From contig NC_006395.1 of the NCBI RefSeq assembly GCF_000011085.1, positions 186,001 through 250,000 of the forward strand: a stretch of 64,000 nucleotides of DNA. Reading direction: 5' to 3'. A program made the position numbers and the translations under genes. Origin of the DNA: Haloarcula marismortui ATCC 43049 (GTDB lineage Archaea > Halobacteriota > Halobacteria > Halobacteriales > Haloarculaceae). Below the pieces are notes generated by a model. That model made no database searches and was not told where the DNA came from. It saw only the letters and a program-made list of their open reading frames with translations. Shown one piece after another: positions 24,276 to 35,831 of the stretch. How positions within the stretch are numbered: the stretch's first letter is position 1; the number at the start of each line of letters is the position of its first letter.

Positions 24276-25691
24276 TTACTCGACTATATATCCTAGGTCG
24301 GAAAGTTGGTCTCTGATGTCGTCGCTGAACTCGACCTCTTCCCCATCGAGTTTCTGACTGTCGATTTCGCTTAGCCGCCTCTGGAGGCCCGCCTTGAGTT
24401 CGTCCCTGCGGTCGGGGTACGACATTGAGACGTCTGACTGTTCGTCGGGGAGTTCGAACAGCACGTCACCTTCCGCACTCTGCTGATATTTGAAGTCGTG
24501 GGTCCGGAGCGAACTAAGCGCCGCATCGTCGAAGTACCCGGTATCGAACGACGGGTCATGTTCTTGTATCGCCGAGAGCGGGCCCTGGATGTCAGCGGCA
24601 CGCTGGCTGAGTGCAGCTGTCCGTCGTTCGTTCCGGAGGTCTATGCCATCGAAATCGGTCGTATCGCCGCCAGCAATCTCGACGAGCGTTCGAACGATGT
24701 CGATATGCTGGACGAGTTCGTCCTGTTTATCGGCCACTGAATCGAGCCCGTGTACGACGGCCGGGACGTGAATCAAACCATCGTGAAGGACGAATTTGTG
24801 ACCGAGCAGGCCACACTCTCCGAGGAGGTCACCGTGGTCGGCGGTCACAACGAAAACGGTGTTCTCGAGGTCGAGCGCCTTCAGATGGTCGAAGAGTTCT
24901 CCGATCAGTGAGTCAGAGTACGCTACGAGCGTGTCGTACATCACGTTCAAAGCGTTCCAGTCCGCTTCGCCGAACTCACTGACATTGGCGATTCCTCGGT
25001 GAAGGTCGGCGGTGTGTTTGAAGGCCCGCTCGCTCGCTGCTCTTGGCGATTCGACGAGGTCCGACGAGAACCGGTCCTGCCATGCCGGCGGCGGATAGTA
25101 CGGGAGGTGTGCGCCGTGGTAGTGTGCGGACAGAAAAAACGGTTCCTCCCTTTCGGTTCGGGACGAGACCTGCTTCTTTACGACTTCGTTGACGAAGAAG
25201 TCGGGCCGGTGTTTCGTCTTCTCCGTACTGAGGCCGCCTGAATGGGACCGCAAGTTGCTGAGGAAACGGAGCAGTGTACGCGGGCTAACCTCTCTGAATA
25301 GGTCGGTCGGATTGATGTGTTTGAACGTTTCGAACCCACGGGAAAGGCCGGTAGATTCGCTGAAGTAATGGTTCGCCGAGACACCAACCGTCTGATACCC
25401 TACCTCCTGAAGTCGCTCGGCGACGGTGTTGACGCTCTGTGGCAGCTTGTTCGTACCGTAGCCTGTCCGGTGGTGTTCGGGAAAGGTTCCGGTGTGTATC
25501 GATGCTGCCGACGGCAGTGACCAGTTCGCGGCGGCAATGCAACTACTGAAACTGACTCCGCCCGCCTGATTGGCGATACGCTCCATGTTCGGCGTCGTCG
25601 CTCGCGCGTGGCCATCTAACGTGGTACGGTCGTATCGAATACTGTCTAGAGTAATCCAGATGATATTAGACGGAGCAGTTGACTCGCTCAT
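24276..25691 (-). CDS. Sulfatase/alkaline-phosphatase-superfamily protein
   Basis: A 471-residue cytosolic-looking protein (no signal peptide). The superfamily fold is clear: IIWITLDSIRYDRTT near the start supplies metal-binding Asp, and TADHGDLLGECGLLGHK supplies the second metal site. The nucleophile region reads NWSLPSAAS (residues 56-64) instead of the C/S-x-P-x-R sulfatase signature, so formylglycine cannot form. It ends in a family-typical LSDLGYIVE tail. It may hydrolyse or transfer a phosphate or sulfate ester on the glycan. It overlaps nothing; a similar gene lies divergently at 25891. Confidence 0.82.
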   Translation of the reverse strand: MSESTAPSNIIWITLDSIRYDRTTLDGHARATTPNMERIANQAGGVSFSSCIAAANWSLPSAASIHTGTFPEHHRTGYGTNKLPQSVNTVAERLQEVGYQTVGVSANHYFSESTGLSRGFETFKHINPTDLFREVSPRTLLRFLSNLRSHSGGLSTEKTKHRPDFFVNEVVKKQVSSRTEREEPFFLSAHYHGAHLPYYPPPAWQDRFSSDLVESPRAASERAFKHTADLHRGIANVSEFGEADWNALNVMYDTLVAYSDSLIGELFDHLKALDLENTVFVVTADHGDLLGECGLLGHKFVLHDGLIHVPAVVHGLDSVADKQDELVQHIDIVRTLVEIAGGDTTDFDGIDLRNERRTAALSQRAADIQGPLSAIQEHDPSFDTGYFDDAALSSLRTHDFKYQQSAEGDVLFELPDEQSDVSMSYPDRRDELKAGLQRRLSEIDSQKLDGEEVEFSDDIRDQLSDLGYIVE

Positions 25692-25890: not shown

Positions 25891-27372
25891 ATGTCACTGA
25901 AGCAACGGCCAAACGTGCTGTTGATAGTTCTCGACACAGCACGTGCGCGCACGGTGCTCCCGGGTCTCGAATCCGGACTGATGCCGACGCTGTCACGTAT
26001 TGCGAGTGACGGAACGACATTCACCGATGCGACGGCCACTGCGCCGTGGACTCTCCCTTCTCATGCCGGGATGTTCACCGGAAAGTACACGTCATCACAC
26101 GGCGTCCACGCCGGAAACCACATCTTTGACCCGGACTCCGAGCCGCTCGCATCCCGAATCTCCAACGCAGGCTACCGAACGGCGGGCATCTCTGGAAACG
26201 TCTGGATAAGTCCGGAGTTCGGCTTCGATGCCGGCTTCGACGAGTTCTCGATGAAGTGGGACCTTTTTTGGGATGCCCCCGAGCTTTCGAGCGTCATCAG
26301 CAACCGGAACACGACGGCGACCGGCGACACCATTCTGGATGTGTTTCGGGGGCAGGGCCCGGTCGACCTCCTCAAAGGCACGCTTACTACCGGTTACGCG
26401 AAGTTCCTCGCGGAACGTCACGATGATGGGGCACACCACACTACCTCACGAACGGTCGAATGGTTGGAACAGAACGGCACGGAGGACGACCCGTTCTTCT
26501 ATTTCCTGAACTACGTTGAACCACACCTTCCGTACGAACCGCCCGCGCCCTTTCTCGACGAGTACCTGCCTGACGGTGCCGACCCGTCACGCGTTTCGGA
26601 CCTCAACCAGGACCCCTGGCAGTACGTCGCCGGCGACCAGGAGCTGACCGATGCGGACGTAGAAATATTCAAAGGCCTGTACGAGGCAGAGCTGGCGTAT
26701 CTTGATACGCAACTCGAACGGCTCTACGATACACTTGCTGAACAGTGTATTCTCGACGAGACCGCCATCATTCTGGTCGGAGACCACGGGGAGAACATCG
26801 GCGAACACGGGCTGATGGACCACCAGTACTGCCTCTACGAGACACTGATTCACGTCCCTCTCGTCATACGATACCCGGAACTGTTTGACGAAGAGGAGGT
26901 TTCTGGACCCGTCGAACTCCGGGATCTGTATCCGACCGTTACAGACCTCGCGGGCGCTGAGCAGCCGGCCGATACGGACGTTTCGACACACAGTTTGGTT
27001 CCCCGGGACGGCACCGTTCCCGTACGGGACAGAGCAATCGCCGAGTATCTCGTCCCGCAGCCGTCGATGGATTCGCTCCGAGAGGCAGTGGAGTCGTTTG
27101 ATGAGGCTGCGACGCGGTTCGATCGCCCGCTTCGAGCGATTAAAACAACCGACTGGAAATTCATCGAGGCACCGGACGACACTGAACTGTACGACCGCGA
27201 TGACGACCCTATCGAATGGATTGACGTCGCATCGATACATCCGGACATCTGTGAGCTCCTCGGGACAGACCTCCGAGACGAACTCGGTCGCCTCGCTCGC
27301 GGAACGTCGGACAGCAATACCATCAGCGCGAATAAAAAAGAGCGCCTCGAAGACTTGGGGTACCTACAGTGA
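25891..27372 (+). CDS. Sulfatase/alkaline-phosphatase-superfamily protein
   Basis: A 493-residue protein from the ATG at 25891; a GTG at 25873 would add six residues. It shows NVLLIVLDTARARTVLP, TAPWTLPSHAGMFTGKY (residues 50-66) and LVGDHGENIGEHGLMDHQ. The nucleophile position TLPSH lacks the sulfatase Cys and Arg. The C-terminus ends LEDLGYL, shared with the other three superfamily members in this locus. No signal peptide is visible, so it would act on intracellular glycan precursors, or be exported unconventionally. It pairs divergently with the gene at 24276-25691. Confidence 0.82.
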   Translation: MSLKQRPNVLLIVLDTARARTVLPGLESGLMPTLSRIASDGTTFTDATATAPWTLPSHAGMFTGKYTSSHGVHAGNHIFDPDSEPLASRISNAGYRTAGISGNVWISPEFGFDAGFDEFSMKWDLFWDAPELSSVISNRNTTATGDTILDVFRGQGPVDLLKGTLTTGYAKFLAERHDDGAHHTTSRTVEWLEQNGTEDDPFFYFLNYVEPHLPYEPPAPFLDEYLPDGADPSRVSDLNQDPWQYVAGDQELTDADVEIFKGLYEAELAYLDTQLERLYDTLAEQCILDETAIILVGDHGENIGEHGLMDHQYCLYETLIHVPLVIRYPELFDEEEVSGPVELRDLYPTVTDLAGAEQPADTDVSTHSLVPRDGTVPVRDRAIAEYLVPQPSMDSLREAVESFDEAATRFDRPLRAIKTTDWKFIEAPDDTELYDRDDDPIEWIDVASIHPDICELLGTDLRDELGRLARGTSDSNTISANKKERLEDLGYLQ

Positions 27373-28583: not shown

Positions 28584-29780
28584 ATGAACTTGGATGTCGA
28601 AAACGTCCTCATTTACGTCGACGACGCTGTTAGATACGATGCGATTGCGGACACGCTGTCTGATTTCGGGCCGACGCACAAGACCATCGCAGCGTCGACT
28701 CATACCCCGACGTCGTTTGGGAGTCTGCTGACTGGACTATTACCGCCGCGGAGCGGAATCCACAGTTTCAAACACACAGTCCCCCCTGACGTGCGGTCTG
28801 TCTTCGATATCGAGACATACGAGACGTCGATGGGGTCTGAGGGAGGGATGAACGACGGCATCGCAGACATCTTCGGCTCTCCGGCACGGACGACTATCGA
28901 GGAAGCGAGGCCGCCATTCGTCCACGTTGTCCGCCGTCCCGGTGGACATGCGCCGTACAATGGGTTCGAGTGGGAGCAGTACGAGTACGCGGACGAGACT
29001 GCCGCCGAATATTTCGACAGGATTTCGAATCAACCAGAACAAGCACGAATCGATTACGAGCGGGGCGTGGAGCGCTCGTTCGAGGAATTCCAGCGCGTCC
29101 TCGGTGTCCTGAAAGAGCGCGGGCTCGCCGACGACACGTTAGTGGTCTACACGAGCGACCACGGTGAACTCCTCGGCGAGTACGGGTTTTTCGGACACAC
29201 ACACGCTGCCACGCCCGAAGTCGTCTACGTGCCGACGACGTTCATCCATCCCGAGCTCGAACCTGGACAGGTCGACGGTCTCTTCCACCACGTCGACTTG
29301 GTGCCGACCGTCGCCGACGCGATGGCACAAGACGTCGACATCGGAGAAACAGACGGGGTTATTGAGGGCGCCGACCGCAAAACCGGATACAATCACCTCC
29401 GGCACATCCGGTACGGGACCCTTGCCGACCCGCTCGAACGTCTGCTCCAGATGACCGGCGGATTCGAGCGGACCATCCAGAGTCTCTGGGATGCGAACGG
29501 TGGTCACGTTTTCGTCGACGGGTCACACGTCACTGCCTCGCTCATCTACCTCGTCCTGTTGCTACAGAAGCCGTTCGGGAAGCAAGTCCGATACGGGAAC
29601 CGCGTCCTCGAATCGTACAAGATGTTCACGCCCGGACACGCGTCGTACGGGCTCCCCGGGTTCGACAAGTCCGAGGCCCAGTCGAAAATCGACTTGATTC
29701 TCGAAGGCGAGACCGCCGGCAACGAACACGACATAGATGCAGCCACTACGGAGCATCTCGAAGAGATGGGATATCTATAA
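28584..29780 (+). CDS. Sulfatase/alkaline-phosphatase-superfamily protein
   Basis: A 398-residue protein from the ATG at 28584; the upstream extension to 28485 lacks homology. It keeps VLIYVDDAVRYDAI and VVYTSDHGELLGEYGFFGHTH for metal binding and ends LEEMGYL. The region of the nucleophile reads THTPTSFGSLLTG (residues 39-51), again without the sulfatase Cys and Arg. A histidine-containing HVVRRPGGHAPY loop precedes the second half. It is third of four related genes here. Confidence 0.8.
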   Translation: MNLDVENVLIYVDDAVRYDAIADTLSDFGPTHKTIAASTHTPTSFGSLLTGLLPPRSGIHSFKHTVPPDVRSVFDIETYETSMGSEGGMNDGIADIFGSPARTTIEEARPPFVHVVRRPGGHAPYNGFEWEQYEYADETAAEYFDRISNQPEQARIDYERGVERSFEEFQRVLGVLKERGLADDTLVVYTSDHGELLGEYGFFGHTHAATPEVVYVPTTFIHPELEPGQVDGLFHHVDLVPTVADAMAQDVDIGETDGVIEGADRKTGYNHLRHIRYGTLADPLERLLQMTGGFERTIQSLWDANGGHVFVDGSHVTASLIYLVLLLQKPFGKQVRYGNRVLESYKMFTPGHASYGLPGFDKSEAQSKIDLILEGETAGNEHDIDAATTEHLEEMGYL

Positions 29781-29843: not shown

Positions 29844-31112
29844 GTGGCCGATAACACAGCGAACCACGCGTACAACCGACCGCCTCGGGGTGCACAAGAT
29901 TGGGACGTACTGCTCAACGAGAACTTTTCGCGTATAGACGGCGACGTCGAGATTCGGGATACGGAGGAGAACCGCAGTCAGTACACACCGAAGACCGGTG
30001 CGAAGTACCTCGCGACGGATACCGGACAGGTCTATCTCGGCGACGGGAACGAGTGGCAGCGACGAGCCTCCGTCAACGTCGTCCGGAACGGTTTCACTCG
30101 GACGGCCGACGGAACAGTGATTGCTCCACCGGGCGAACTCCAAGCGGCAATCGATGCGACCGCGACGAACTCCAACTTCGGTCAGCAACCCACACAGACT
30201 ATCAGTCTCGTTTCCGGACGAACGTATGAAATATCCGATACAATTACGCTCAAATCCGGTGTCCGGCTGGAGTGCAACGGCGCTAGAATCGTCCCATCCG
30301 GCGATTTCAATGTTTTTGAGCTTCACCGTGAGACACAGCTAGTCCGCCCCCACATTGACACGCGAAACATGGACTGGCAGTCGATTCAAGTCCTCATCGG
30401 TACCAAGGAGTCCGACAAGCTAGAACCGTCAAACCGAGCCTGGGTACAGGACGCCTATTTGCTCGGTGAGCCGGGACGGGGCACTGGCTTGCAGTTTCGC
30501 GGACAGGACGGACCGTGTTCAATGCAAGCAGCCAGCGGTATACTCAATGGATTCGACACCGCACTGGAGTTCTACGCGGCGGGCGGCGACACCAGCGGCC
30601 AGGGCGACTGGTCGAACGGCAACCACTTCGAGGGCACTATTCGGAACTACCGTGTCGCGATTAGCATGCGATCGGAAGGTGCAGCGGTCAGCGGGAACAC
30701 GGTCAGGGCGCAAGTACAGGCAAACAGCAAGCGGAGCGAATGGCTCCTGTGGATGGCGGATGACCCCCGAAGCGAACGGGACAGCGAGAACTACCTGATG
30801 AAGGGCAACACCCTCTTCGTGTATCCGTGGGACGTCAACAACTACAGCGCGAACAACCCCTACAGCTCTGATGCGGACCGACGGGCTCCGATATGGTATC
30901 TCGGGCGAGGGACCCGCTACGGGAACTCCATATACGATTTCAGTGGCCTGCTGGGAAACGAGTTCATCGTGAACAACTCCGACAACCCCGACCGAAACGG
31001 GATCTTCACCGCACACGGCGGAGAGGTCACTGGAACGGCACAGCTCCGGTTCAACCCCGCATACGACCGAAACGATAGTCGAAGATGGCACCCGGAGTCC
31101 GAGAACAGCTGA
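29844..31112 (+). CDS. Tailspike-like right-handed beta-helix protein (paralogue A)
   Basis: A 422-residue protein from a GTG at 29844; a TTG at 29829 would add five residues, but the GTG aligns with the start of the paralogue at 32398. The N-terminal 70 residues form a module with DWDVLLNENFSRIDGDVEIRD and YLATDTGQVYLGDGNEW, like the adapters of phage tail fibres and spikes. The rest is a pectin-lyase-type beta helix (GVRLECNGARIVPSGDFNV onward). No signal peptide is seen. It converges with a close paralogue 26 bp away. It may bind or cleave the polysaccharide made by this locus; enzymatic activity is unproven. Confidence 0.72.
   Translation: MADNTANHAYNRPPRGAQDWDVLLNENFSRIDGDVEIRDTEENRSQYTPKTGAKYLATDTGQVYLGDGNEWQRRASVNVVRNGFTRTADGTVIAPPGELQAAIDATATNSNFGQQPTQTISLVSGRTYEISDTITLKSGVRLECNGARIVPSGDFNVFELHRETQLVRPHIDTRNMDWQSIQVLIGTKESDKLEPSNRAWVQDAYLLGEPGRGTGLQFRGQDGPCSMQAASGILNGFDTALEFYAAGGDTSGQGDWSNGNHFEGTIRNYRVAISMRSEGAAVSGNTVRAQVQANSKRSEWLLWMADDPRSERDSENYLMKGNTLFVYPWDVNNYSANNPYSSDADRRAPIWYLGRGTRYGNSIYDFSGLLGNEFIVNNSDNPDRNGIFTAHGGEVTGTAQLRFNPAYDRNDSRRWHPESENS
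30573..30634 (+). repeat. 62-bp perfect inverted repeat, left arm (inside paralogue A)
   Basis: This 62-bp stretch is identical to the reverse complement of 31622-31683, inside the convergent paralogue. It encodes the YAAGGDTSGQGDWSNGNHFE segment in both genes. Identity at every third position over 62 bp, while flanking sequence has diverged, suggests recent gene conversion or strong constraint. The arms are about 1 kb apart and could support inversion. Confidence 0.9.
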
Positions 31113-31138
31113 AACCAGGGCCTTCTGGACAGCAGTCG

Positions 31139-32398
31139 CTACGAGTTACGTGATTCGTGGTGCCAGTTACGGCTGTCATTGCGCTGGTAGTTCGGCGGCT
31201 GGCTCCACTCCGTAGTCCCCGTCACATGCCCACCGTGGCCGGTGAGAATACCGTTCCTGTCAGGGGTGTCAGCGTTGTTGACGATGTACTGGTTGCCCAT
31301 CAGGCCACCGAAATCGTACAGCGAATTCGCGTACTGCTTGCCCTTTCCGATGTACCACACCGGAGGCTTGCGGTCACTGCTATCGTAGTACGGGTTCTTT
31401 TCGTAATTGATGTTGTCCCAGGATTTCACCAGCATGGCGTTCCCCTTCTTGACGTAGGAAGAGTCTCCGCGCTGAGAGCTGGAGCGGGGGTCGTCTTCCA
31501 TGTACCAGAGCCACTTACTGACTCGCGGGTTCGGCTGCGCCTGCAGACGGAAGGAGTTGCCAGTGACGGCCGCGCCTTCCGACCGCATCGAGACCCCGAT
31601 TTCGTAGTTTCGGATGAGCCCCTCGAAGTGGTTGCCGTTCGACCAGTCGCCCTGGCCGCTGGTGTCGCCGCCCGCCGCGTACAGGTCTATCGCACGCTTG
31701 AACCCGTTGATAGTTCCGGTCGCCCACTGCATCGAGCAGGGGCCACCGCTTCCGCCGCGGAACTGGAGGCCCGTTCCAGCGCCCTTGTCGCCCATGAGGT
31801 AGGCGTCTCGGACCCAGGCCCGGTTCGCGGCCTCGAGTTTTGCAGCGTCGTCGGCACCGACGACGATTTGGGTCGAACTCCAGCCTTGGTTCCGGGAGTC
31901 GATATGTGGCTCTATGAGCTGGCTCTCCCGGTACATCTCAATGACGTCGAAGTCACCGGAGGGAACGATTCTGGCGCCGTTGCACTCCAGTCGGACGCCG
32001 CGCCGTATTTTAATTGTGTCCGAAACGGTGTAGTTCTCACCCGAAACCAACCGGACGGTCTGGGTCGGCCGCTTGCCCCATTCGGCTCCGTTCGAAGCGT
32101 CGTCGATCGCGGACTGGAGGTCGCCGGGCGACGCGATTATCGTCCCGTCGTCGGCGGTCTTCGACCCCGTAGACGAGGGTGTAATGTCCCCAATTGGGTT
32201 CCACATGTCACCGTCTCCGAGATACACTGTCCCCGTATCCGTCGCGAGGAACTTCGCACCGGCGTTGGGCGCATACTGGTCCATGTTGGATTCGGCGTCC
32301 CGGTGTTCGACGTGGTTGTCGAGCTTCTTGAAGTTCTCGTTGAGCGGTACGTGCCAATCTAGCGTGCCCTCCGCGGGCGTGTTGTATCGTTCTGACAT
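31139..32398 (-). CDS. Tailspike-like right-handed beta-helix protein (paralogue B)
   Basis: A 419-residue protein from the ATG at 32398. The frame is open upstream to 32677, but that part overlaps the CBM6 gene and is low-complexity read-through. It matches paralogue A along its whole length: DWHVPLNENFKKLDNHVEHRD, FLATDTGTVYLGDGDMW, GVRLECNGARIVPSGDFDV and the conserved C-terminal RNDSRNWHHES. No signal peptide is visible. It starts four bases after the stop codon of the CBM6 lipoprotein gene, so the two are co-translated, linking this beta-helix protein with a surface carbohydrate-binding protein. Confidence 0.75.
   Translation of the reverse strand: MSERYNTPAEGTLDWHVPLNENFKKLDNHVEHRDAESNMDQYAPNAGAKFLATDTGTVYLGDGDMWNPIGDITPSSTGSKTADDGTIIASPGDLQSAIDDASNGAEWGKRPTQTVRLVSGENYTVSDTIKIRRGVRLECNGARIVPSGDFDVIEMYRESQLIEPHIDSRNQGWSSTQIVVGADDAAKLEAANRAWVRDAYLMGDKGAGTGLQFRGGSGGPCSMQWATGTINGFKRAIDLYAAGGDTSGQGDWSNGNHFEGLIRNYEIGVSMRSEGAAVTGNSFRLQAQPNPRVSKWLWYMEDDPRSSSQRGDSSYVKKGNAMLVKSWDNINYEKNPYYDSSDRKPPVWYIGKGKQYANSLYDFGGLMGNQYIVNNADTPDRNGILTGHGGHVTGTTEWSQPPNYQRNDSRNWHHESRNS
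31622..31683 (-). repeat. 62-bp perfect inverted repeat, right arm (inside paralogue B)
   Basis: Partner of the arm at 30573-30634, read on the opposite strand. The two genes are otherwise clearly diverged at nucleotide level, so this block stands out. Confidence 0.9.
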
Positions 32399-32402
32399 TG
32401 TT

Positions 32403-34697
32403 TTACTGGGTACCCCCGTACCCACCCATCCCATAGCCTTCGCTGCCGAGGTCGTCGGTCGCGGTCTCGGTCTCCGTCGGTGTCGGCGTCGCCGTTTCAG
32501 TCGGTGTGGCCGTCTCGGTCTCCGTCGGTGTCGGCGTCGCCGTTTCAGTCGGTGTGGCCGTCTCGGTCTCCGTCGGCGTCGCGGTTTCGGTCTCCGTTTT
32601 GGCCGCGTCCCGGAACTCGAACCAGTTGAAGTCGATACCGGAACCGACCGCCTTGACCTGGATGACGTGTTCGCCACCGGAATCGACCGTCACATCCGGA
32701 AGCGTCGCCGTCTCCCAGGTAGTCCAGTCGCCCGTGTTCGGGACAGCCACCGTGCCGACCCGGTCGCCGTCGATCGACACCCGCAGTTGCCTGTCGTCAC
32801 GGGTCGTCGCCACCCGGACGTCGATGATGTAGGTTCCGGTCGGCACCTCCACGGTGTATTCGAGCCACTCGCCGTCCTCGAAGTAGCCGACGTTGTACTC
32901 CCCGGAGACGTCCTGCGTCTGCCGGATGTCAACGTCGGAGTCGCGGTAGTCGAGGTCGTACTCGCTCCCGGCGGTGGTGTCGTGGTACGCCACGCCCTCG
33001 CCCCCGAGGTCGTAGTTCTGGGCCTGCACCCGACCCGGCAGAACCGGGACGCCATCGAACGGCTGGTTGCCGGCGACGACGAACTCGGCCCAGTTGAAGT
33101 CGATGCCGGAGCCGACGGCCTCGACCCGGAGAACCTGCTGCCCGTCGGCGTCGATGTTTACGTCCTCCAGGGTCGCGGTTGTCCACGCCGTCCAGTCGCC
33201 CGTGTTCGGGACGTCGAGTGTTCCGAGCGTCTGCTCGCCGAGCGTGAACCGGAGCTTTCTGTCGTCCCGGGTCGTCGCCACGCGGACCTTGATGTCGTAC
33301 TGGCCCGGCGAGACGTCGGCGGAGTATTCGAGCCACTCGCCGTCCTCGAAGTAGCCGACGTTGTACTCCCCGGTGCTGTCTTGGGTTTCCCGGATGTCGA
33401 CGTCGGTGTCGCGGTACCCGGTGTCGTACTCGTTGCTGGCCGTCGTGTCGGAGTACGCGATGCCCTCCCCACCCGTGTCGTAGTTCTGGGCCTGGATACG
33501 GCCGGGAATCGTGGCGGGCGTCCCGTTGTAGGGGTCTTGCCCATCGACTCTCTCAAACTCGACCCAGTTGAACTCCACGCCGGAGTCCAGCGCCTCGACC
33601 CGCAGCGTCGATTGCTGTTCGGTCGTTATTTCGATGTCCTCTACTGTGACGGTCTCCCACGAGGTCCAGTCGCCCGTCTTGGGAATGGTGATGGTCGCGA
33701 GGGCCCGGTCGCCAAGGAACAGTTCGAGTTGGCCGTCCGAGAGCGCCGACGCGACTCGCAGGCTGATATCGTACGTCCCCGGCGAGACAGTGGTCGTGTA
33801 TTCGAGCCACTCTCCGGCCTGGAAGTAGCCGACGTTGTACTTCCCGGACTCGTCTCCCGTCGGTCGGATGTCCACGTCGGTGTCCCGGTTGGCGGACCCG
33901 TAGATGTTCCCGTTGGACGTGTCGTGATACGCCTCGCCTTCGCCGCCGATGTCGAAGTTCTGGGCCTGGATACGGCCCGGAATCGACCGGACTGTTCCCT
34001 CGTACGGAGACTGGGACTGCGTCGTGTTGCCGGTCGAGAGGGTCAGCGAGTAATCGCCACCGCTCCGACCGATGTCCATGACTTGCAGGTAATATGTCGC
34101 ACTGGTAGAGAGCGATTCCGGGAGATACACGGGGGCCGCCGAACTCGCGTACGCCTGCGACACCAGTTCGCCGTCGGGGTTGAACACCCCAAGGGCAGCG
34201 GGCCCCGTGCCGGGGCCGGGTGTAAACTTGACCGTCACGTCCTCGGTGTCGGGCCGAAACGTGAAGAGGTCGGACGAGCTCGGAGACAGCGTCGTCGAGA
34301 GCGGAGACCCGACGTTGAGGCTGCTGACCGACTTCGCCACGCTGGCGTCTCCGGCCACATCCGAAACATCGACCGCGGCGAGCTGGGACGTCACTGCTGG
34401 CTCGCCGCCGTAGCCGAACTGTGCCGTCGAACTGACTGTGGTAGGACCACCTTTACCGGTACATCCCGCCAGGGACGCGGTGGCAATGCCTGCTAATTTC
34501 AGGCATGTGCGTCGGTCTACGACGGTCGTGTCCGTCGGCCTCCTGTCCTCCCGCGACACCTCTTCACTGTCGTGCGAGCGATTCTGTTCTTCGTTGGTCA
34601 CACTCCGGTAATCTCTATTTACTATTTTATTCGTTGTTGCGGGTTGGGTGGCTTTTGAACTACTTGCCATCCCATTCAATATATCTTGCCATCCCAT
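32403..34697 (-). CDS. Tat lipoprotein with three CBM6 domains and a Gly-Tyr tail
   Basis: A 764-residue protein from the ATG at 34697; ATGs nearer the signal could be used. A DRRTCLKLAGIATASLAGC segment (about residues 61-79) is a twin-arginine signal with lipobox. A pre-peptidase-like beta domain follows (residues 110-210). Then come three CBM6 domains, each opening IPGRIQAQN(F/Y)D or LPGRVQAQNYD and ending (V/I)(E/D)FNW(V/A/F)EF. A TPTETETA-repeat stalk and the C-terminal GYGMGGYGGTQ close the protein. It probably anchors at the membrane and binds polysaccharide outside. It is co-translated with the beta-helix paralogue B. Confidence 0.87.
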   Translation of the reverse strand: MGWQDILNGMASSSKATQPATTNKIVNRDYRSVTNEEQNRSHDSEEVSREDRRPTDTTVVDRRTCLKLAGIATASLAGCTGKGGPTTVSSTAQFGYGGEPAVTSQLAAVDVSDVAGDASVAKSVSSLNVGSPLSTTLSPSSSDLFTFRPDTEDVTVKFTPGPGTGPAALGVFNPDGELVSQAYASSAAPVYLPESLSTSATYYLQVMDIGRSGGDYSLTLSTGNTTQSQSPYEGTVRSIPGRIQAQNFDIGGEGEAYHDTSNGNIYGSANRDTDVDIRPTGDESGKYNVGYFQAGEWLEYTTTVSPGTYDISLRVASALSDGQLELFLGDRALATITIPKTGDWTSWETVTVEDIEITTEQQSTLRVEALDSGVEFNWVEFERVDGQDPYNGTPATIPGRIQAQNYDTGGEGIAYSDTTASNEYDTGYRDTDVDIRETQDSTGEYNVGYFEDGEWLEYSADVSPGQYDIKVRVATTRDDRKLRFTLGEQTLGTLDVPNTGDWTAWTTATLEDVNIDADGQQVLRVEAVGSGIDFNWAEFVVAGNQPFDGVPVLPGRVQAQNYDLGGEGVAYHDTTAGSEYDLDYRDSDVDIRQTQDVSGEYNVGYFEDGEWLEYTVEVPTGTYIIDVRVATTRDDRQLRVSIDGDRVGTVAVPNTGDWTTWETATLPDVTVDSGGEHVIQVKAVGSGIDFNWFEFRDAAKTETETATPTETETATPTETATPTPTETETATPTETATPTPTETETATDDLGSEGYGMGGYGGTQ
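32464..32590 (-). repeat. 48-bp tandem repeat coding the Thr/Pro/Glu stalk
   Basis: Two identical 48-bp units at 32464-32511 and 32512-32559 are followed by a partial, diverged copy to about 32590. They encode the ETATPTETATPTPT-type stalk of the CBM6 lipoprotein. Exact copies suggest length variation by slippage; such Thr-rich stalks are probable glycosylation sites. Confidence 0.85.
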
Positions 34698-34916: not shown

Positions 34917-35831
34917 TCAGTTCACGTAGCCGAGATGCTCGAGTCGCTTGCGGGCAGTCGCTCTATCCTGGTCGGTCGTGTCGGAACCAGCGGGATTCTC
35001 AGCGGTGATTTCCGGACGCTCGCCGCGCTCGTATGTCAACCACGGAACCGTGACCAGTCCGTCGGCGTACACCCCGCCCGGGTGTCCGTACTCCCGTATC
35101 GGCACGGGGAAACTCCGCTCACCGATGACCTGCCCGTGGTCCGCGGTGACGACTGTCTTTCCCGAGAACTCATCGAAGAGCCGTTCGACCTCGGGCAACA
35201 CCACGTCGAGATTCTCCTTGAACGCACGCTCGACGATCTCGTCGGAGACGTCCAGTTCCCCGCTGAGGAGCTTGTACCACTCGAAATTGAGCCTGTCCAA
35301 TTCGAAGTGCTCCTGTCCGGTCGGCCCGAGGAACGGGTAGTGCGGTTGGAGGTAGTGGACCAGCAGTCGCTTGTTGGGGTACCGCTCTTTCGCCTGTATC
35401 GCGGCTTCGGTCATCGTTTCTGGGAGGACCGTCCGGTACTCCTTGTCCCATCCGTCCTCCCTCCACACGTCGACGACGTCGTGAAACCGCGTCTCTACCT
35501 TGTCTCGATGCCTGTGCAACATCGGGCTTCCCGTTACGTACACCGTATCGAGGAACTCGCGCCCGTGAAAGTTCGCTCTGAGGAACTCCTTCGTGTCCGA
35601 CGCCCTCGATTCCACCGACTCGAGTTTCCCGGGAAGCGAACTCTGCTCCTCGAACATGTCGTAGCGACACGCATCCAAAATGAGGAGGTGGTCCCAGTCC
35701 TTGGCAAAGACGTCGATGCCGTCACGGTTGTACGGCCACGTCCGTAGTCGGCGATAGTAAAGGCGGTTGACCTCTTGGAAAATCTTGTGTGGTTCATCGA
35801 GGCCGTGTTTCAACGACTCCAGCGTGTACAT
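34917..35831 (-). CDS. Alkaline-phosphatase-superfamily protein, short
   Basis: A 304-residue protein, shorter than the three other members. Near residues 45-60 it has WDHLLILDACRYDMF, the metal-binding Asp with a Cys at the nucleophile-proximal position; TVVTADHGQVIGERSFPVP and YGHPGG complete the metal site. It ends LEHLGYVN, like its relatives. There is no signal peptide. Proteins of this type recur in haloarchaeal glycan loci and are annotated sulfatase- or LTA-synthase-like; the substrate is unknown. Confidence 0.8.
   Translation of the reverse strand: MYTLESLKHGLDEPHKIFQEVNRLYYRRLRTWPYNRDGIDVFAKDWDHLLILDACRYDMFEEQSSLPGKLESVESRASDTKEFLRANFHGREFLDTVYVTGSPMLHRHRDKVETRFHDVVDVWREDGWDKEYRTVLPETMTEAAIQAKERYPNKRLLVHYLQPHYPFLGPTGQEHFELDRLNFEWYKLLSGELDVSDEIVERAFKENLDVVLPEVERLFDEFSGKTVVTADHGQVIGERSFPVPIREYGHPGGVYADGLVTVPWLTYERGERPEITAENPAGSDTTDQDRATARKRLEHLGYVN

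Follow-up and report, generated by a model that had tools for sequence, protein, structure and literature searches.

The stretch of DNA analyzed here, the window, comprises 64,000 nucleotides of Haloarcula marismortui ATCC 43049 (contig NC_006395.1, positions 186,001 to 250,000) and is part of a megaplasmid of this species. It contains two convergent genes, arranged tail to tail, for leaderless, tailspike-like proteins, which we call A and B, and next to the gene for B lies that for a lipoprotein with a twin arginine translocation (Tat) signal and tags built around the residues GYG. Protein A (422 amino acid residues, GTG start) is encoded at 29844..31112 on the plus strand and protein B (419 residues, ATG start) at 31139..32398 on the minus strand; the two are 59% identical. 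The motif DWxVxLNENF occurs only twice in the six reading frames of the window, at residue 19 of A and residue 14 of B, and ATDTGxVYLGDG follows at residues 57 and 52, respectively. The convergent pair that a sequence-only reading of this DNA described, with both motifs in each protein, is confirmed at exactly its coordinates. Both motifs and their flanking residues make up a module of about 70 residues (mean column identity 65% among 37 diverse sequences), referred to below as the LNENF module. It is encoded at 29856..30056 (plus strand) in A and at 32192..32398 (minus strand; residues 1–69) in B, where a predicted helix (residues 16–28) is followed by a helix/strand part resembling tail-fibre trimerisation domains. 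The remainder of B (31142..32161, minus strand; about residues 80–419, with low confidence for residues 326–419) is predicted to form a right-handed beta-helix, as is, by alignment to B, the corresponding part of A (30099..31109, plus strand). The module of B is 100% identical in NZ_CP039137.1 (pHMA411, 410,547 bp).

The lipoprotein gene (32403..34601 from its annotated start, minus strand) ends 4 bp before the start of B on the same strand. From its N terminus, the product contains a Tat motif and lipobox (RRTCLKLAGIATASLAGC; 34461..34514), an N-terminal GYG tag (FGYGG; 34404..34418), carbohydrate-binding module (CBM) repeats of the CBM6/CBM35 type, the best-scoring of three being encoded at 32616..32945, a Thr/Pro/Glu-rich linker (32448..32600) and a C-terminal GYG tag (GSEGYGMGGYGGTQ; 32406..32447), all on the minus strand. 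The sequence-only reading had B co-translated with this CBM6 lipoprotein; the 4 bp gap and the shared strand bear out the arrangement, and make co-translation itself plausible. That reading treated the lipoprotein as mere company, but judged by its sequence it has a Tat signal and GYG tags, and proteins of its kind are found next to the module again and again throughout the order.

Full-length B was found in 15 of the 32 Haloarcula genomes searched, including its own, and in all 15 a gene for A lies beside it on the opposite strand. The gap between the two is 32–54 bp in 13 of the 15 pairs (those with both genes inside the fetched stretch); the remaining two (L197:4643-5434 and L198:4732-5253, where L numbers denote individual loci) have an extra gene between A and B that is methyltransferase-like by eye. 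Both proteins are under purifying selection, with ratios of non-synonymous to synonymous substitution (dN/dS) of 0.02–0.26 where dS was unsaturated, and Haloarcula hispanica has the same cassette (HAH_RS18945, HAH_RS18950 and HAH_RS18955).

The module extends far beyond this genus. With the module of B alone as the query, 107 of 392 genomes of the order, in 46 of 95 genera, were matched, while in a 294-genome sample of the phylum it was detected in 14 genomes, ten inside the order and four outside, the latter weakly (G428, G448, G485, G595). Going by these matches, it is a widespread and apparently undescribed family of haloarchaeal hosts. We fetched 100 stretches around listed matches and added four plasmid-record stretches (L081, L082, L083, L086), partly redundant with other stretches or with the window, giving a set of 104 loci, which does not include several weak matches, the majority of the Haloarcula pair loci and those matches that were not listed. 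In 103 of 110 module open reading frames (ORFs) the module starts no later than residue 12; it is either fused to its cargo or encoded as a separate neighbor of it, cargo and partner domains being freely exchanged; those of carbohydrate type include PL14, pectate-lyase-like, CBM6/35 and laminin-G domains. A clustering of the cargo by BLAST placed 93 of the 110 proteins in a single cluster and was not used. In a variant arrangement, a short LNENF tag is found at the C terminus of leaderless enzymes (L159:4522-5646, L160:5340-6680, L163:5033-6391 and L165), preceded in several by YGG; L164 has three tandem copies of the motif. The gene for such an enzyme in L159 lies 40 bp behind that for a GYG lipoprotein.

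None of the 107 called genes that bear the module satisfies either a twin arginine (RR) rule for Tat signals or a simple, looser signal rule (R/K), and the same holds, under both rules, for all 13 genes directly behind adaptor-only module genes, most of whose products start like MATLNVQDYGAVGDG or MTTYYVDPANG and are leaderless beta-helix proteins. For comparison, we collected cargo-domain relatives from the same loci that have neither module nor adaptor (untagged homologues); 28 were found, two of which were cut at the locus edge, and their ORFs were extended to the upstream stop before scoring. The RR rule is satisfied by 22 of 26, and many of these Tat-signal homologues also have a lipobox; the other four (L145, L076, L148, L067) are fragment-like or lie beside module genes, and were kept in the count. 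The two forms lie close to each other in L160 and L163, as beta-helix proteins that are 46% and 33% identical, respectively, one form being leaderless with the C-terminal LNENF tag and the other having an RR signal without the tag. These distributions indicate that the cargo domains are normally exported by the Tat pathway and that the module, or a neighboring module protein, stands in for the signal. The uniform lack of a signal peptide would also be expected if the module-bearing proteins had no need of export and worked inside the cell, on lipid-linked or nascent polysaccharide for instance. However, the Tat signals and lipoboxes of untagged homologues of the very same domains speak against this, as do cargo folds typical of extracellular polysaccharide enzymes, and we consider a cytoplasmic role distinctly improbable.

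The proteins that recur upstream of module genes are Tat (lipo)proteins with [FY]GYGG soon after the signal and a GYGxxGYGG-type tract at the extreme C terminus. A fixed rule detects such tags in 59 of the 14,020 frames of the 104 loci, as against none of 2,374 in 20 control stretches of the same genomes, and a tagged frame lies directly upstream of 47 of the 110 module ORFs, mostly 3–60 bp away. A broader rule yielded 49 upstream and four downstream partners, of 112; five of 2,633 control frames passed it, none with a C-terminal tag of GYG type. The union of both rules, together with L079, L132 and L136, which were added after the gene lists had been read, comprises 58 partner-bearing loci of the 104. 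A Tat-like signal was identified in 45 of these 47 upstream partners of the fixed rule, a lipobox in 37 and an N-terminal GYGG in 30. The middle part varies, consisting of CBM6/35, laminin-G or a linker alone, and the smallest partners amount to roughly a signal, a linker and the tags (78 residues in L107; 73 and 81 residues in L140 and L147, both downstream of the module gene).

A genome-wide search for DNA encoding GYGxxGYGG, which is independent of the choice of loci, gave 74 sites in the 392 genomes. Forty-seven of these precede a listed module of the same strand by no more than 400 bp, a placement for which the chance fraction is about 2e-5 per site, and seven further sites are within 25 kb; 52 of the 61 genomes with a site have a listed module. 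In the 33 genomes with partnerless module loci, a looser GYG-type tract is present within 20 kb of the module in 12 (0.83 expected), among them G184, where a tract 25 bp upstream of the module had been missed by the earlier rules. Seven stretches with a site but no adjacent listed module were inspected (L199–L205). The L205 site is inside an unrelated membrane-type protein, and that in L199 is covered by no called gene. In L204 (5513-7625) a divergent LNENF gene lies directly behind the site; this locus also encodes a leaderless SGNH-type-esterase-like protein and a protein with a stretch (FKRGT...VHDG) that is phage-fibre-like by eye. Taken over all loci, two elements stay constant, the LNENF module of the leaderless proteins and the GYG tags of their Tat partners, and the simplest reading of this constancy would be that the two dock.

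The setting is mostly one of polysaccharide genes, as the sequence-only reading had stated for the window. The neighbors of A and B are glycosyltransferases, a flippase-type protein, sulfatase-like proteins, AglF and the CBM6/35 lipoprotein, and polysaccharide genes are present in 69 of 100 module loci compared to one of 20 control stretches. Upstream of A lies a gene for a sulfatase-like hydrolase/transferase (28584..29780, plus strand), one of four alkaline-phosphatase-superfamily-like proteins of the sulfatase type around the pair (the others at 24276-25691, 25897-27372 and 34917-35831 of the window); the last of these has a weak PglZ match only.

At the sequence level, the helix parts of A and B match tail spike family phrog_12123 of PHROGs (5.7e-5 and 1.7e-9, respectively), while no Pfam pectate-lyase family matched either protein, PF12708 was not found in their own genome, and a sequence-profile search of the PDB gave nothing convincing. 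An AlphaFold2 model of B has a mean predicted local distance difference test (pLDDT) of 61.8, with values of 80–90 over much of residues 80–180 and poor values after residue 326. With VIA-align, the helix of this model aligns to a Klebsiella K1 capsule lyase (Z 18.7, 205 residues, 2.8 A), Geobacillus virus E2 ORF18 (7chu; Z 18.7, 222 residues, 3.9 A), the Fri1 gp49 tailspike (6c72; Z 18.4), AlgE-type epimerases (Z 17.2–17.5) and RbmB (Z 16.0–16.2). A tailspike-type right-handed parallel beta-helix is thus predicted for B, and the structural likeness to tailspikes that the sequence-only reading proposed as a check is found, at Z 16–19, along with a likeness to beta-helix polysaccharide enzymes. 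Foldseek alone found no PDB match to B at E 0.001 or better (best 1.2e-3); it gave six matches in BFVD, and also lists the host proteins WceF (6tgf, E 0.10) and VexL (6fi2, E 0.18). The fold is common to viral and cellular polysaccharide enzymes and is by itself no proof of viral origin.

The N-terminal module matches the Major tropism determinant N-terminal domain of Pfam (Mtd_N, PF18454) below the gathering cut-off of 26.3 bits (13.7 for A, 13.4 for B, 16.6 for the module of B alone), and 19 of 37 module members score weakly against it (best 6.9e-5). In isolation, the module of B has a predicted fold with a pLDDT of 86, for which Foldseek returned no match. Residues 24–69 align to the trimerisation domains of collagen XVIII (Z 4.2), Mtd (Z 4.0) and phage hyaluronan lyase (Z 2.4–3.1), and to residues 3–52 of Geobacillus virus E2 ORF18 (Z 2.8). 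These Z values are low; almost every alignment row is a trimerisation domain or a part of a tail fibre, which is no more than suggestive. The likeness to PF18454 concerns the second half of the module, which superimposes over 39 residues at 1.6 A, but A and B fall below the curated cut-off and the first half (YNTPxxGxxDWHVPLNENF) is uncovered by the domain.

Five of the loci (L079, L122, L132, L136, L151) contain a three-gene set consisting of a homologue of the T4 gp19-type tail tube, a tailspike-type module protein and then, where the gene is readable, a Tat protein with GYG-like repeats. A gp19-type homologue in L085 matches Pfam at 6.5e-29, and the module protein of L122 (L122:3147-4283) has a Peptidase_S74 chaperone above the cut-off. 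The sequence-only reading had proposed that A and B may be domesticated virus receptor-binding proteins that now trim or anchor the polysaccharide of the host; their genes would then come from a halovirus tailspike. This derivation would fit the tailspike-like fold of B, the S74 chaperone and gp19 homologue in family loci and the resemblance of both domains to those of Geobacillus virus E2 ORF18. Yet the viral relatives of the module that it would call for did not appear in IMG/VR or among GenBank phages: a search of IMG/VR with B found none, the module alignment gave 17 pattern matches there of which none was confirmed, and phage records held no relative of B at E 0.01 or E 10 nor of the module at E 1, the S74-type relative in L122 matching phages only through its chaperone part (residues 232–322). 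The module, moreover, is found in host genomes across nearly half of the genera of the order, and domestication leaves the linkage to a carrier unexplained. The idea of domesticated virus proteins is only partly supported, in that the fold and tail-type features are present and viral relatives of the module were not found. Judged by what the sequence-only reading itself named as refuting, half of the idea fails, and viral descent of the module is conjectural; as a full account of A and B we regard it as rather unlikely, although as a statement of origin it is compatible with the explanation that we prefer. The gp19 homologue, beside the module in five of 100 loci, might instead suggest that the cell encodes a contractile injection system or tailocin at another site, with these proteins as its tail fibres. 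We rejected this very improbable alternative, as the phage sheath family PF04984 is absent in 15 of 15 module-bearing genomes, including that of H. marismortui, and the neighborhood is of the polysaccharide rather than the tail type; at the window site there are no virion or tail genes. G131, the sole genome tested among those with the three-gene set, likewise lacks a sheath gene.

The sequences themselves establish that the module and the GYG partner exist and are linked in the genomes, that module-bearing proteins lack signals whereas untagged homologues have Tat signals, and that the context is one of polysaccharide genes. The explanation that we favor, as somewhat likelier to be right than wrong, is that leaderless tailspike-type proteins owe both export and anchoring to a GYG-tagged Tat lipoprotein on which they dock, and that they bind or trim the polysaccharide of their own cell. 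A and B would be made without a signal peptide, as plug-in surface proteins, with the LNENF module serving as an N-terminal docking and trimerisation part ahead of the beta-helix. In the cytoplasm, the module would dock with the GYG tags that the lipoprotein carries, the cargo would fold, probably as a trimer, and the folded complex would leave through the Tat translocase on the single signal of the partner (hitch-hiking). In most cases the lipid of the lipoprotein would then anchor the complex, which the CBM domains and the Thr/Pro-rich stalk of the lipoprotein would keep within the polysaccharide. The carrier of B would be the CBM6/35 lipoprotein translated just upstream, and A would share it. 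Once outside, the beta-helices would bind or trim exopolysaccharide made by the surrounding cluster. Physical docking, Tat-dependent export of the complex, the trimeric state and the action on polysaccharide are what we infer from these observations.

Several points weigh against this explanation. By the criteria used, an adjacent partner is lacking in 46 of 104 loci, including some with PL14-type cargo (e.g., L065); in 21 of the 33 genomes with partnerless modules no looser GYG tract lies within 20 kb; L200–L203 encode orphan GYG-tagged Tat proteins without an adjacent module gene; and A itself has no adjacent carrier gene. Partnerless modules, orphan GYG proteins and a carrierless A leave room for a second type of carrier or another export route. 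Since the untagged homologues represent only some five families, neither the 26 nor the 22 are independent; signals were scored by simple rules and not by SignalP; the model of B is of moderate confidence, and the models cover single chains only. Haloarchaea use Tat widely, and a Tat signal on the partner alone is therefore weak evidence. The partnerless loci and orphan GYG proteins would also suit a co-regulated surface kit without docking, in which the leaderless proteins exit by another route and the GYG lipoprotein is a mere neighbor acting on the same polysaccharide. However, the module and the GYG tags stay constant while the surrounding domains vary, minimal partners hold little beyond their tags, and the mutual exclusion of module and signal is near complete, all of which makes such a kit unlikely in our view.

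Docking onto a Tat lipoprotein may represent a general carrier route of haloarchaea, in which a portable phage-tail-like module, or a short LNENF tag, replaces the Tat signal, and the GYG-tagged lipoprotein carries and holds enzymes as a plug and socket for folded trimers; we offer this wider proposal tentatively, at a little less than an even chance. If it is true, archaea have a modular means of exporting and anchoring folded, probably trimeric carbohydrate-active proteins without signals of their own, and many haloarchaeal beta-helix proteins annotated as hypothetical and leaderless are explained. Tail-fibre parts would be seen to serve the surface biology of the host, and the system could be put to use for surface display in high salt.

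Among known systems, cohesin–dockerin pairs are similar in that a portable pair of tags recruits many carbohydrate-active domains to a scaffold at the surface. Their sequences are unrelated to those described here, however, and in cohesin–dockerin systems each partner has a signal of its own and docking takes place outside the cell, whereas the cargo here has no signal. Phage tailspikes and depolymerases (Fri1 gp49, 6c72; Geobacillus virus E2 ORF18, 7chu; HK620) share the order of an N-terminal module and a right-handed beta-helix, but A and B belong to host loci without tail genes at the site, and no viral sequence relative was found. In PaoABC of E. coli, as reported (PMC4273604), one subunit has a Tat signal and signal-less partners exit with it in a folded complex. 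The likeness lies in one partner with a Tat signal and another without, encoded side by side (for B, not for A); PaoABC, however, consists of fixed enzyme subunits, while here a portable module and a tag would be combined with unrelated cargos and partners, and the co-export is our inference. Under our proposal, Tat hitch-hiking would no longer be confined to fixed enzyme pairs but would include a system of swappable tags. The closest precedent for A and B acting on the polysaccharide of their own cell appears to be WceF of Pantoea stewartii, a host tailspike-like beta-helix protein for which, according to the abstract (PMC7949094), a trimer was solved and hydrolysis of stewartan measured, and which modifies its own exopolysaccharide; like WceF-type enzymes, A and B are encoded inside a polysaccharide synthesis cluster. 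WceF differs in being bacterial, in that its abstract mentions neither an LNENF module nor a GYG Tat partner, and in that the activity of A and B is a prediction only. The open-licence literature searched contained no description of a carrier combining module and tag. Tailspike-like host exopolysaccharide enzymes and Tat hitch-hiking are each already known; what appears to be new is their combination through a portable module and tag, and there is a fair chance that, with docking confirmed, this would constitute a new kind of carrier system.

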